64,000 nt of DNA, from assembly GCA_016125275.1 (NCBI GenBank), contig WGMB01000006.1, forward strand, positions 1 through 64,000. Reading direction: 5' to 3'. Within the stretch, counting starts at the first letter, position 1; every line of letters starts with the position of its first letter. Shown here one piece after another: positions 35,583 through 54,578 of this stretch. The notes under the pieces were generated by a model. That model ran no database searches. It worked only from the letters and a program-made list of their open reading frames with translations, and was not told where the DNA came from. The stretch comes from Acidobacteriota bacterium (GTDB lineage Bacteria > Acidobacteriota > Terriglobia > Bryobacterales > UBA6623). A program made the position numbers and the translations under genes.

Positions 35583-36164
35583 ATGCCTAGCCCCCCGCCC
35601 AAACCGAGCGCCGAGCGCGCAATCCGCGACGAGGTCGTCGTCGCCAAGACCGGCAAGAGCCGGCGGGCCTGGTTCGAACAACTCGACAAAGCGGGCGCCC
35701 GAGGCTGGGATCACAAGGCCATCGCACGCAGCCTGCGCCAGGACTACGGGCTCACGCCGTGGTGGGCGCAGACCGTGGCGGTCGACTACGAGCGCGCCGC
35801 CGGGTTGCGCGACCAGCATGAGCAGCCGGACGGCTACCAGATCCAGCGGGAGCGCACCGTCCACGTCTCCGCCGAACGCGCTTGGCGAGCCTGGGACGAC
35901 GAGGCCGAGCGCCTGCGCTGGCTCCCGGAGGCCGCCCAAGCGAAGATTCGCCGGCTCGCGGGCGCCCGCCGGCGGGTACGGCTGGATTGGCCGAACGGCC
36001 GTGTGCTGCTGGGCGTCCAGCCGCGCGGAGACGACAAGTGCTCGGTGGGCGTGATGCACTCGCGTCTGGCCGGCCGGGACGACGCCGAGGCGGCCAAGCG
36101 GTTCTGGTCCGCCCGGCTCGACGCCCTGGTGGCCCTGCTCGAAGGCCCGGATGAGATACGATGA
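35583..36164 (+). CDS. DUF4287 plus SRPBCC/AHSA1-like protein
   Basis: A 193-residue protein. The N-terminal DUF4287 segment (TGKSRRAWFEQLDKAGARGWDHK then WWAQTVAVDYERA) is followed by a START/AHSA1-like domain (ERTVHVSAERAWRAWDDEAE, then RLAGARRRVRLDWPNGRVLLGV). SRPBCC domains bind hydrophobic ligands; the DUF4287 half has no known function. TTATAC (35562..35567) lies 15 nt before the ATG. The stop region overlaps the next gene by 14 nt. Confidence 0.8.
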   Translation: MPSPPPKPSAERAIRDEVVVAKTGKSRRAWFEQLDKAGARGWDHKAIARSLRQDYGLTPWWAQTVAVDYERAAGLRDQHEQPDGYQIQRERTVHVSAERAWRAWDDEAERLRWLPEAAQAKIRRLAGARRRVRLDWPNGRVLLGVQPRGDDKCSVGVMHSRLAGRDDAEAAKRFWSARLDALVALLEGPDEIR

Positions 36165-36762
36165 TTCGGGCGTGAGAGTCTTCCTCCAACTCCTGCTGCT
36201 TTGCTCGGCGGCGACGGCCGCGACCGGGGCGGAAGCGCATCTGGGCAAGACGCTGGAACAGTGGCGGGCGCAACTGGGCGCCGACAATCGCGTGGAACGT
36301 CTGGTCGCCGCGCGCTCGCTGGGCGAGATGGCGATCGACGGACAGCCGGGCGCGCTGGAAGCCGTGACGGCCTCGCTCGACGACGCCGATTCCGCCGTGC
36401 GCTACTGGGGCGCTGTGGCGCTGGGCGAGTTGGGGGCCAAAGCCAAGCCCGCTGAGCAGGCGCTCCGCTCCCGGCTGGACGATCCAGCGCCCGAGGTGCA
36501 GGTCTGGTCGGCCTACGCCCTGGTGCGGATGGGCGACGAGCGGGCCGGCCTCCAAAAGCTGATCGAACAGCTTGCCAACCCCGAAAAAGGCGCGCGCCTG
36601 CAGGCCGTCACCGCGCTCGACCAACTGGGAGAAGCGGCCTCCCCGGCCGTCCCGGAGATCGAAGCCGCCCTGGACGACGAGTTCGACTACGTCCAACGCA
36701 TCGCCCGGCACGCACTCTGGACGCTGGGGCGGCGCCCTTGTCCCTACGCCGAGTGCCCCTGA
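36151..36762 (+). CDS. exported HEAT-repeat protein
   Basis: A 203-residue protein with a signal segment (VFLQLLLLCSAATAATGAEA) and four HEAT-type repeats (LVAARSLGEMAIDG, AVRYWGAVALGELG, VQVWSAYALVRMGDE, LQAVTALDQLGEAA), an alpha-solenoid for protein binding. GAAGG five nt before ATG 36151 supports this start; a GTG at 36172 would give a tighter signal peptide. The first 14 nt overlap the previous gene, so the two are probably co-expressed. Confidence 0.75.
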   Translation: MRYDDSGVRVFLQLLLLCSAATAATGAEAHLGKTLEQWRAQLGADNRVERLVAARSLGEMAIDGQPGALEAVTASLDDADSAVRYWGAVALGELGAKAKPAEQALRSRLDDPAPEVQVWSAYALVRMGDERAGLQKLIEQLANPEKGARLQAVTALDQLGEAASPAVPEIEAALDDEFDYVQRIARHALWTLGRRPCPYAECP

Positions 36763-36817: not shown

Positions 36818-38056
36818 ATGAACGCGCGCGCCTTTCTCCTCGTTGTTGCGGCCCTCGGGCTGGCTTGCGGACCCGCGGCGGAGGCGCCGCCGGCCGAGAC
36901 GTCCGAGCCGGCCGCTATGAAGGTGGAGCGCAAGCTCATCTACCCGGCGCAGTTTGCCGAAGGCAAGTCCTATACCCCGGGCGTTCTAGCGGGCGACACG
37001 CTCTACCTGGCCGGTATGATCGACCTCGATCCCAAGACCGGCCAGCAGCCCGAAGGCGTCGAAGCCCAGACGAAGATGGCGATGGACTCGATCGGCCATG
37101 TGCTCGAGGCCGCCGACATGACCTATTCGAACTTGGTCTCGTGCCACGTGATGCTCGACGACATGGAGAACTACAAGGCCATGAACGCGGTCTACGGCTC
37201 CTACTACGAGGAGGGCAAGTACCCCGCGCGCACCACGCTCGAGATGCCTTCGCTGGTGGCCGGCGCGCACGTGGAGATCAGTTGCATCGGCTACCGCAAC
37301 GCCGCCGAGATCCAGTACATCCACGCCGCTGAGGGCCGCACGCCCCCCGCGATGGGGCCGTACTCGCCGGGCGTCATGGCCGGCGGCACGCTCTACATCT
37401 CCGGTCAGGGCGGGCGCGACCCCAAGACCAACGAGGTCGCCGAGAAGGTGGGCGACCAGACCGCGCGCACGCTGGAGTCGATCCAGGCGATCCTCGAAGC
37501 CGCCGGTCTGGACTTCAAGAACGTGGTCTTCACCAACGTCTACTACCTCGGCCCCGAAAACCGCGCGGGCGTGGACGAAGCCTATATGAAGCCTTTCATG
37601 GAAGGCGGCGCGCCGAGCCGCGGAGCGTTCTGCCTGTCGCGGCTGCCCGGCACGATCAGCGTGGAGATCACCTTCCTGGCGGCCAAGGACAACTACATCA
37701 CGCGGCTCTACCCGCATGACGAGCAGCCCGGCGCGACCTCCTCGCCCGCGAGCCTGACCGGAGACACCCTCTATGTCTCCGCCCACGCCGCGCCGGAGGC
37801 GGGCGAGACGCTGGAGGCGCAGTTCCGCGCCATCCTGGAAGAGCAGAAGGCGCGCCTCGAGCTCGCCAGCATGGGGCTGGAGAACGTGGTCGACGCCAAG
37901 GTCTATCTGGCGGACTCGAACGACTTCAAGGCCATGGACGCGCTGTTCAAGGAATACTTCCCGAACAACCCGCCGGCCCGCACCACGGTGGGCGTGCGCG
38001 AGGAAGCCGACCGCGCCGGGACGAAGCTCGAAATCGCGTTCATCGCGGTGAAGTAG
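36818..38056 (+). CDS. exported protein made of three tandem RidA (YjgF/YER057c) domains
   Basis: The 412-residue protein has a signal-like start (AFLLVVAALGLACGPAA, weak lipobox LAC). Three RidA domains follow at about 33-160, 170-295 and 300-410. Each keeps an Arg at the position of the RidA catalytic Arg (YPARTTLEMP, PSRGAFCLSRLP, PPARTTVGVR) and the VEISCIG / VEITFLA / LEIAFIA strand. RidA normally works as a cytosolic trimer that hydrolyses 2-aminoacrylate; here the trimer appears covalently linked and exported. A TATTCT box (36804..36809) lies 8 nt before the ATG. Substrate unknown. Confidence 0.85.
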   Translation: MNARAFLLVVAALGLACGPAAEAPPAETSEPAAMKVERKLIYPAQFAEGKSYTPGVLAGDTLYLAGMIDLDPKTGQQPEGVEAQTKMAMDSIGHVLEAADMTYSNLVSCHVMLDDMENYKAMNAVYGSYYEEGKYPARTTLEMPSLVAGAHVEISCIGYRNAAEIQYIHAAEGRTPPAMGPYSPGVMAGGTLYISGQGGRDPKTNEVAEKVGDQTARTLESIQAILEAAGLDFKNVVFTNVYYLGPENRAGVDEAYMKPFMEGGAPSRGAFCLSRLPGTISVEITFLAAKDNYITRLYPHDEQPGATSSPASLTGDTLYVSAHAAPEAGETLEAQFRAILEEQKARLELASMGLENVVDAKVYLADSNDFKAMDALFKEYFPNNPPARTTVGVREEADRAGTKLEIAFIAVK

Positions 38057-51954: not shown

Positions 51955-52057
51955 GGGGGGAACAGGTGACCTGCTCCCGGAAAACCAGACCAACTGGGCA
52001 GATGGGGGACGGCAGATGGGGGGCAGATGGATCGGGGCAGATCGGGGACAGAGCCCG
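51955..52057. repeat. REP-like array upstream of RAYT 1
   Basis: An imperfect palindrome GGGAACAGGT-G-ACCTGCTCCC (51958..51978, one mismatch) is followed by four GGCAGAT units at 51997, 52011, 52022 and 52036, then GGGACAGAGCCCG (52045..52057). The last element is inverted downstream of the RAYT gene. This is the arrangement of REP/BIME elements beside their transposase. Confidence 0.6.
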
Positions 52058-52093
52058 AATAGGGCGGGGAGTGTGCGAGACTGTCAGCGAACG

Positions 52094-52783
52094 ATGCCGA
52101 GAGCGGCGCGGGTGGTGGCGGTCGGGGCACCGCATCACCTGACTCAGCGGGGCAACAACCGCCAGGACGTATTCCTCGTCGACGACGATCGGCGAGCCTA
52201 TCTCGAGCGGCTGCGGCAGGACTGCCGGGCGCGTGGGGGGCGGGTCTTGGACTACTGCCTCATGAGCAATCATGTCCATCTGATCGCTGTGCCCGGGCGC
52301 GCCGACTCGTTCGCTCGCGCGCTGCGGCGGGCGCATTCGAGCTACGCCCAGGCGTTCAACAGGGAGTACCGCCGCGGCGGCCACTTGTGGCAGAACCGCT
52401 TCTTTTCGTGTGCGTTAGCGGCGGACCACGTGCCGGCGGCGCTGCTGTACGTCGACCTGAATCCGGTGCGGGCGGGGTTGGTGGGCGGCGACGCCGGGTA
52501 TCCGTGGTCGAGCGCGGCGTGGCGCGCCAACGGGTCGGAGGACGCGCTGCTCGACAAGGAAGCCTGGTCGGAAGTCCGCGAAACAGGCGCTTGGGGGGAG
52601 GCGTTGCGCCGAGGCCCGGGAGCTTGGTTCGAGGAGGAGCTCAGGGAAGCGACTCGGACGGGGCTGCCGCTGGGAGACGAGCGGTTCGTGGCGGAGCTCG
52701 AGCAGCGATCAGGTCGGCGCCTGCGAGCAGCCAAGCCGGGTCCGAAGCCACGGGCGGTTGGAGCCGGAGCAGGCGGTAAGTGA
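52094..52783 (+). CDS. REP-associated tyrosine transposase (RAYT 1)
   Basis: A 229-residue single-strand transposase of the Y1/IS200-like group. Start MPRAARVVAV is the canonical RAYT opening. Motifs: PHHLTQRGNNRQ, HUH-type NHVHLIA, catalytic Tyr in HSSYAQAFN, GHLWQNRFF and YVDLNPVRAGL. RAYTs cut and move flanking REP sequences. The C-terminus is basic (RRLRAAKPGPKPRA). REP-like arrays lie on both sides, with a 13-bp inverted pair at 52045..52057 and 52836..52848. Confidence 0.88.
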   Translation: MPRAARVVAVGAPHHLTQRGNNRQDVFLVDDDRRAYLERLRQDCRARGGRVLDYCLMSNHVHLIAVPGRADSFARALRRAHSSYAQAFNREYRRGGHLWQNRFFSCALAADHVPAALLYVDLNPVRAGLVGGDAGYPWSSAAWRANGSEDALLDKEAWSEVRETGAWGEALRRGPGAWFEEELREATRTGLPLGDERFVAELEQRSGRRLRAAKPGPKPRAVGAGAGGK

Positions 52784-53765: not shown

Positions 53766-54578
53766 ATGCGGAGCATGGAGAAGCGGACGCGATCGGCGGG
53801 GACGAAGCTGACCGAAGGCGAGTACGAGCGGCTGGAGCGGGCGGCCGGAGCGACGATCCGGGGCGATGCCGCGCTTGGCTCGCGTGGTAGCGGGGGCGTA
53901 CCGCACCACGTCACGCAGCGGGGGAACAACCGCCAACAAGTCTTCTTTTCCGATCAACAACGGCGCCTGTATCTGGCAACGCTTGCCGGATACGCCACGC
54001 GCAATCAGCTCCAGATTCTCGGCTATTGCCTTATGCCGAATCACATTCATGCGGTCGTCGTTCCGCAGTTGCAAACCTCGATGGGACATAGCTTTGGCCG
54101 CGCTCACAGCGCCTACAGCCGCTATTTCAATCGGACCAGAAATCGCAGCGGGCATCTGTGGCAAAATCGCTTCTATTCCGCCCCACTCGACCGCCCCCGC
54201 CTACTCGCCGCTTTGCGATATGTGGACCTCAATCCAGTTCGAGCCCGCATGACCGATCACGCGGAAAGCTACGGCTGGTCCAGCGCGACGGCGCACCTGA
54301 CGGGCCGTGATCCGTTCGGTCTGATCGATCCCGCGGTCTGGGAGGCGCTCTGTCCGGCCGGCGGCTGGAAGGACATGCTGCAGCCGGCCCGGGGCTCGGA
54401 CGAGGAGTGGGCACAGCGCCTGCGCGCTGCCACACACTCCGGCAAACCATTGGGAAGTCAGGGGCTTATCGAACAAATGGATCGGCTCGCCGGGTATTTC
54501 CTCGTTTGGCGGCGGGATTTGGAGATCAGTCGGGATTGGGTTGAGTTGGTGTCGGGGAAGTTGGCCGGGAGGCTGTGA
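53766..54578 (+). CDS. second RAYT (REP-associated transposase), frameshifted at the N-terminus
   Basis: The main frame encodes the full catalytic part: PHHVTQRGNNRQ, HUH motif NHIHAVVVP, Tyr in HSAYSRYFN, GHLWQNRFYS and YVDLNPVRARM. The canonical start MPRLARVVA is present at 53866 but in another frame, so about one C is missing near 53901. The in-frame upstream extension (53775 onward: EKRTRSAGTKLTEGEYERLERAAGA) resembles the N-terminus of ribbon-helix-helix proteins and is probably a fused fragment. It is unlikely to be made as a normal RAYT unless recoded. Confidence 0.8.
   Translation: MRSMEKRTRSAGTKLTEGEYERLERAAGATIRGDAALGSRGSGGVPHHVTQRGNNRQQVFFSDQQRRLYLATLAGYATRNQLQILGYCLMPNHIHAVVVPQLQTSMGHSFGRAHSAYSRYFNRTRNRSGHLWQNRFYSAPLDRPRLLAALRYVDLNPVRARMTDHAESYGWSSATAHLTGRDPFGLIDPAVWEALCPAGGWKDMLQPARGSDEEWAQRLRAATHSGKPLGSQGLIEQMDRLAGYFLVWRRDLEISRDWVELVSGKLAGRL

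Follow-up and report, generated by a model that had tools for sequence, protein, structure and literature searches.

A predicted envelope lipoprotein of Acidobacteriota with three RidA domains in one chain

Rid proteins are usually studied as agents of cytosolic damage control, in which RidA converts imines and enamines to keto acids and ammonia. Several proteins that unite RidA-like units in a single chain have been described. A triple RidA fusion, exemplified by EF_0115, was named 3x-RidA in 2015 and presumed to form a covalently linked trimer unit (Niehaus et al., PMC4433059). Cyanuric acid hydrolase has been argued to be a concatenation of YjgF units (PMC3758960). The FIST domain of FBXO22 is pseudo-threefold, with a fold common to chorismatases and cyanuric acid hydrolases, and this fold was possibly derived from YjgF monomers (PMC11185555).

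Here we analyze one gene in a stretch of 64,000 nucleotides (the window) from an acidobacterial genome. A preliminary description had proposed that it encodes a single-chain RidA trimer sent to the envelope, with an undescribed imine/enamine detoxification or ligand-binding role in the periplasm. The triple fusion already carried a name (PMC4433059); we found no description of an exported, periplasmic or secreted RidA in the open-access literature. We conclude that the window protein is a real, conserved and apparently exported version of the known 3x-RidA architecture, and that the fusion itself is not new.

Domain architecture and N-terminus

The window protein contains three RidA-family domains in one chain, as first described (Table 1). 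A Pfam scan placed three PF01042 stretches in the open reading frame (ORF; total E 4.1e-67), which also matches TIGR00004 (E 1.6e-62).

Table 1. Positions of the 3x-RidA gene, its parts and its upstream neighbor in the window
Feature	Position	Strand	Remarks
3x-RidA lipoprotein gene (predicted)	36818..38056	+	ATG start, 412 aa plus stop; three PF01042 / TIGR00004 stretches
Predicted signal peptide, aa 1-16 (MNARAFLLVVAALGLA)	36818..36865	+	Rule-based reading; Cys column kept in orthologues
Cys17, predicted lipidation site	36866..36868	+	Cys in 15/23 aligned sequences (window + 14); absent from Sec-type sister branch
RidA domain D1, aa 38-161	36929..37300	+	HMM domain; Arg138 = 37229-37231
RidA domain D2, aa 165-291	37310..37690	+	HMM domain; Arg268 = 37619-37621; most canonical of the three
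RidA domain D3, aa 294-412	37697..38053	+	HMM domain; Arg388 = 37979-37981
HEAT-repeat protein, signal-like N-terminus, just upstream of 3x-RidA	36151..36762	+	Same strand

All signal and leader assignments in this work were made by eye or by rule. On a rule-based reading, the N-terminus MNARAFLLVVAALGLACGPA combines a basic residue, a hydrophobic stretch and a lipobox-like Cys17. The segment MNARAFLLVVAALGLAC reads by rule as a lipoprotein signal, with a basic n-region, a hydrophobic stretch and a lipobox ending in Cys (MNARAFLLVVAALGLA followed by C), and cleavage is predicted between LGLA and C17. Another 22 full-length proteins, orthologues or close paralogues drawn from 19 loci on genome contigs, keep all three domains. 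The lipobox Cys is present in 14 of these 22, so that the aligned column holds Cys in 15 of 23 rows, and the remaining eight have a Sec-like leader without Cys. Because the relatives keep the three domains together with one or the other type of leader, the combination seen in the window protein is more than chance. The signal-like N-terminus of the preliminary description thus reads as a lipobox whose Cys is conserved across the lipoprotein branch, and delivery to the envelope is supported at the level of prediction. We predict that the window protein is a lipid-anchored envelope protein.

It is very improbable that we are instead looking at an ordinary cytosolic 3x-RidA behind a non-functional leader. 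Such a protein would be in keeping with a leader read by rule and with EF_0115, for which the available part of the description does not mention export. However, the lipobox Cys is conserved in the lipoprotein branch, Sec-like leaders occupy the same place in the rest, and an unstructured leader precedes the fold (residues 1-32 lie below pLDDT 50 in an AlphaFold2 model).

At each of three loci (L058, L059 and L060), two 3x-RidA genes are arranged in tandem; the first encodes a lipobox, whereas the second has a Sec-like leader that lacks the Cys.

Relatives and predicted fold

Of 61 genomes around that of the window, 59 have some match, mostly to single-domain proteins. Whole-length matches occur in several genera of this set, and an ORF-level check found three domains in about two dozen of its ORFs. 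The window's own genome encodes a second, diverged 3x-RidA protein (L056). Window-type matches came from 20 loci (L058-L077) in a named genome scan; all are from Acidobacteriota, mostly labelled Bryobacterales, and weaker, single-domain matches followed in other phyla. A scan of viral contigs found no relative. In a phylum sample, 13 of 297 genomes, including the window's own, matched at E <= 1e-45, and the surrounding DNA was read for 11 of the 12 others. Three Rid domains are present at L137 and L139-L146 and two, by local profile, at L147, all with signal-like leaders by eye; no Rid ORF was recovered at L138. The full-length relatives found are all acidobacterial, and those inspected appear exported.

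In a tree of individual domains, the domains of the window branch cluster according to their place in the chain, and each cluster takes in the corresponding domain of L137, which is the nearest outgroup to the branch (support 96/92 for D1, 99/99 for D2 and 95/84 for D3). This grouping indicates that the triple fusion is older than the window branch. A separate fusion may have given rise to some other acidobacterial 3x-RidA proteins.

Shorter and more distant forms were also seen. Two ORFs near an intact 3x-RidA gene (L044, 9549-10100; L046, 5855-6580) encode the same leader and the first Rid domain only, and look like duplication remnants. A triple-Rid ORF that has diverged strongly and carries a signal-like leader occurs at L118 (4468-5610, +), L120 (4148-5332, -) and L122 (4308-5522, +), where it adjoins PLP synthase genes (pdxS-like and pdxT-like by sequence start) and a gene for a MocR-type regulator. 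Pfam confirmed the Rid domains of L118 and L120; for L118 it also confirmed GntR/Aminotran_1_2 and SOR_SNZ. A triple-Rid ORF of a different subfamily, with a lipobox-like leader (FCWGC), lies at L123 (2221-3438, +).

The AlphaFold2 model, computed from the 23-row alignment, has a pLDDT of 87.2 and a pTM of 0.85. Its top whole-chain matches (Foldseek, VIA-align) are chorismatases, aligned over aa 58-411 with Z 27 and rmsd 2.7-3.0; 4bps, for example, superposes over 280 residues between aa 59 and 411 (Z 27.0, rmsd 2.7). Next come single RidA chains, which align over one domain, and FBXO22, which aligns over the whole chain. Since the model matches chorismatases across all three domains, and the published fold is pseudo-threefold and YjgF-like, the three RidA domains likely close into a covalent single-chain trimer. 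The covalently built trimer of the preliminary description is, at the level of a predicted model, supported by this whole-chain superposition.

Cleft residues and neighboring genes

The position of the catalytic Arg105 of RidA is occupied by Arg in every domain of the window protein (R138, R268 and R388), as had been noted at the outset. In the 23-row alignment, R138 is invariant (23/23) and R268 nearly so (22/23). R388 is found in 12 of 23 rows, with Leu, Val, Ile or Gly in the sister genus and L077. The equivalents of Tyr17 and Ser30 are invariant in D2; in D3, Ser replaces the Tyr17 equivalent. At the Glu120 position the window protein has S155, T285 and A407 in place of the Glu of RidA. 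Glu120 is kept in RidA and Rid1-3, and the Arg is critical, but changing Glu120 to Ala in Salmonella enterica RidA had little effect (Niehaus et al., PMC4433059). Arg-bearing Rid proteins deaminate 2-aminoacrylate in vitro (PMC5619798). Given this residue pattern and the published roles of Arg and Glu, D1 and D2 may plausibly act as deaminases, but the case for D3 is less certain. A disulfide between C109 and C156, both invariant, is possible.

The window gene is flanked by the HEAT-repeat gene, whose product has a signal-like start, and by a convergent M20 peptidase gene. Co-transcription of the HEAT-repeat gene with 3x-RidA is possible. We rejected both as partners because neither is a conserved neighbor in the relatives' loci. 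No PLP gene adjoins the window gene, and none was seen beside its lipoprotein-branch orthologues. Elsewhere in the window, in a region of lower GC3, two ORFs (52016-52783 and 53766-54578, +) share an HHLTQRGNNRQ-like or HHVT stretch with REP-type transposases, judging from the ORF starts.

Other relatives do lie beside genes for PLP enzymes with export-type leaders. A divergent SelA/Aminotran_5-type enzyme with an RR leader is encoded next to 3x-RidA at L061, L063 and L066, and the same gene is present with a frame break at L062. At L143, a Tat-type SelA-like gene begins 2 nt after 3x-RidA, and at L137 such a gene lies downstream, with a Tat-type RidA beyond it. Besides a single Bryobacterales lineage, the pairing occurs in two further acidobacterial genomes. 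At L057, the 3x-RidA gene and that for a Tat-type class I/II aminotransferase overlap by 4 nt. The window's own genome contains a four-gene run (L106) of Tat-SelA-like, Tat-RidA, Tat-SelA-like and Tat-RidA genes, all with RR leaders and with single-domain RidAs; similar pairs with single-domain RidA occur at L112, L114 and L115. The PLP lysine motif SGGK is kept in 12 of 12 aligned SelA-like enzymes. Across 12 genomes, 8 of the 94 RidA genes have a SelA-like match within 3 kb, compared to 0.8 expected under random placement. These are not 94 independent trials, given the relatedness of the genomes and the presence of RidA genes that adjoin each other. Since the RidAs counted are also mostly single-domain, the clustering favors a link to exported RidA generally over one to the window protein. 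Taken together, the repeated pairing of relatives with exported PLP enzymes points to imine handling outside the cytoplasm.

Additional neighbors of the relatives include DUF7133 and deoxyhypusine synthase. In the sister genus (L067-L076), a deoxyhypusine synthase-type gene, identified by Pfam in one copy, lies directly downstream of 3x-RidA. We set it aside as a functional partner because it is confined to this group.

We give roughly even odds (about 50%) to the reading that the window protein is an envelope lipoprotein, a single-chain RidA pseudo-trimer that hydrolyzes imines or enamines from exported PLP enzymes. The signal peptide would be cut before Cys17 and the protein anchored to lipid, with its three domains forming a pseudo-trimer that faces the periplasm. 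The interdomain clefts, each with its Arg, would then hydrolyze reactive imines and enamines to keto acids and ammonia. The source of these compounds would be periplasmic enzymes, chiefly exported PLP-dependent SelA- or aminotransferase-V-like proteins, as suggested by the neighbors of relatives rather than those of the window gene itself, and perhaps also amine-oxidizing quinoproteins, again from the relatives' neighbors. More tentatively, periplasmic PLP metabolism in Acidobacteriota may free enamines and imines, for which the lipid-anchored RidA trimer and the Tat-exported RidAs would be the dedicated clean-up or completing enzymes. The imine/enamine role put forward in the preliminary description has only indirect support: the Arg residues and the relatives' recurrent linkage to exported PLP enzymes speak for it, and the S, T and A at the Glu120 positions speak against it.

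Those same substitutions raise a somewhat less probable alternative, in which the fold was kept and the activity changed, so that the protein binds a ligand in the periplasm or acts as a different hydrolase, much as YjgF concatenation led to chorismatase, cyanuric acid hydrolase and FIST. Concatenated YjgF folds have switched function before, the best full-length fold matches are chorismatases and the FIST domain, and D3 is degenerate in the sister genera. The varied neighbors (PQQ dehydrogenase and cytochrome c, DUF7133, deoxyhypusine synthase) would also suit such a change. However, the sequence remains near RidA and has only ~12-14% identity to chorismatase, the Arg of D1 and D2 is nearly invariant, and relatives are linked to PLP enzymes.

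The neighborhoods at L062 and L063, where cytochrome c and PQQ dehydrogenase genes directly follow 3x-RidA, bear on a further alternative. The protein could be a general scavenger of imines or carbonyl-amine adducts, arriving from outside or from quinoprotein or FAD amine oxidation, with no tie to PLP. Cytosolic Rid genes cluster with FAD amine oxidases too, and the window gene has no PLP neighbor. We consider this unlikely, as the quinoprotein link was seen in a single lineage, at loci that carry the PLP gene as well.

If hydrolysis of imines from exported PLP enzymes is the correct reading, a conserved exported Rid set, recurrently beside Tat-type PLP enzymes, would locate imine chemistry in the envelope, with the paired genes pointing to candidates for the enzymes that produce the imines. 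With its unequal clefts, a trimer that is covalently linked by nature could also help to establish how many of the three RidA sites are required.

Comparison with known systems

A single-chain concatenation of a YjgF-like trimer has likewise been argued for cyanuric acid hydrolase AtzD (Toblerone fold; PMC3758960). However, its active site lies in the central barrel, and it is absent among the fold matches listed for the window model. The chorismatases FkbO/Hyg5 (4bps, 5a3k and 5ag3) are alike in predicted whole-chain arrangement (Z about 27 over 280 residues), a comparison of fold alone, whereas sequence identity is 12-14% and the Pfam and NCBIfam matches of the window protein are to Rid families only. 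With RidA/TdcF, the window protein shares fold, sequence family and an Arg105 equivalent in each domain. RidA/TdcF is a single-domain imine deaminase that forms a homotrimer, in contrast to three domains in one apparently exported chain, and the window protein departs from it at the Glu120 equivalent (S/T/A) and, in D3, at Tyr17. A further counterpart is 3x-RidA itself: EF_0115, in the part of its description available to us, is presented with no mention of export, unlike the exported-type window protein, and the two have the tandem triple RidA fusion in common.
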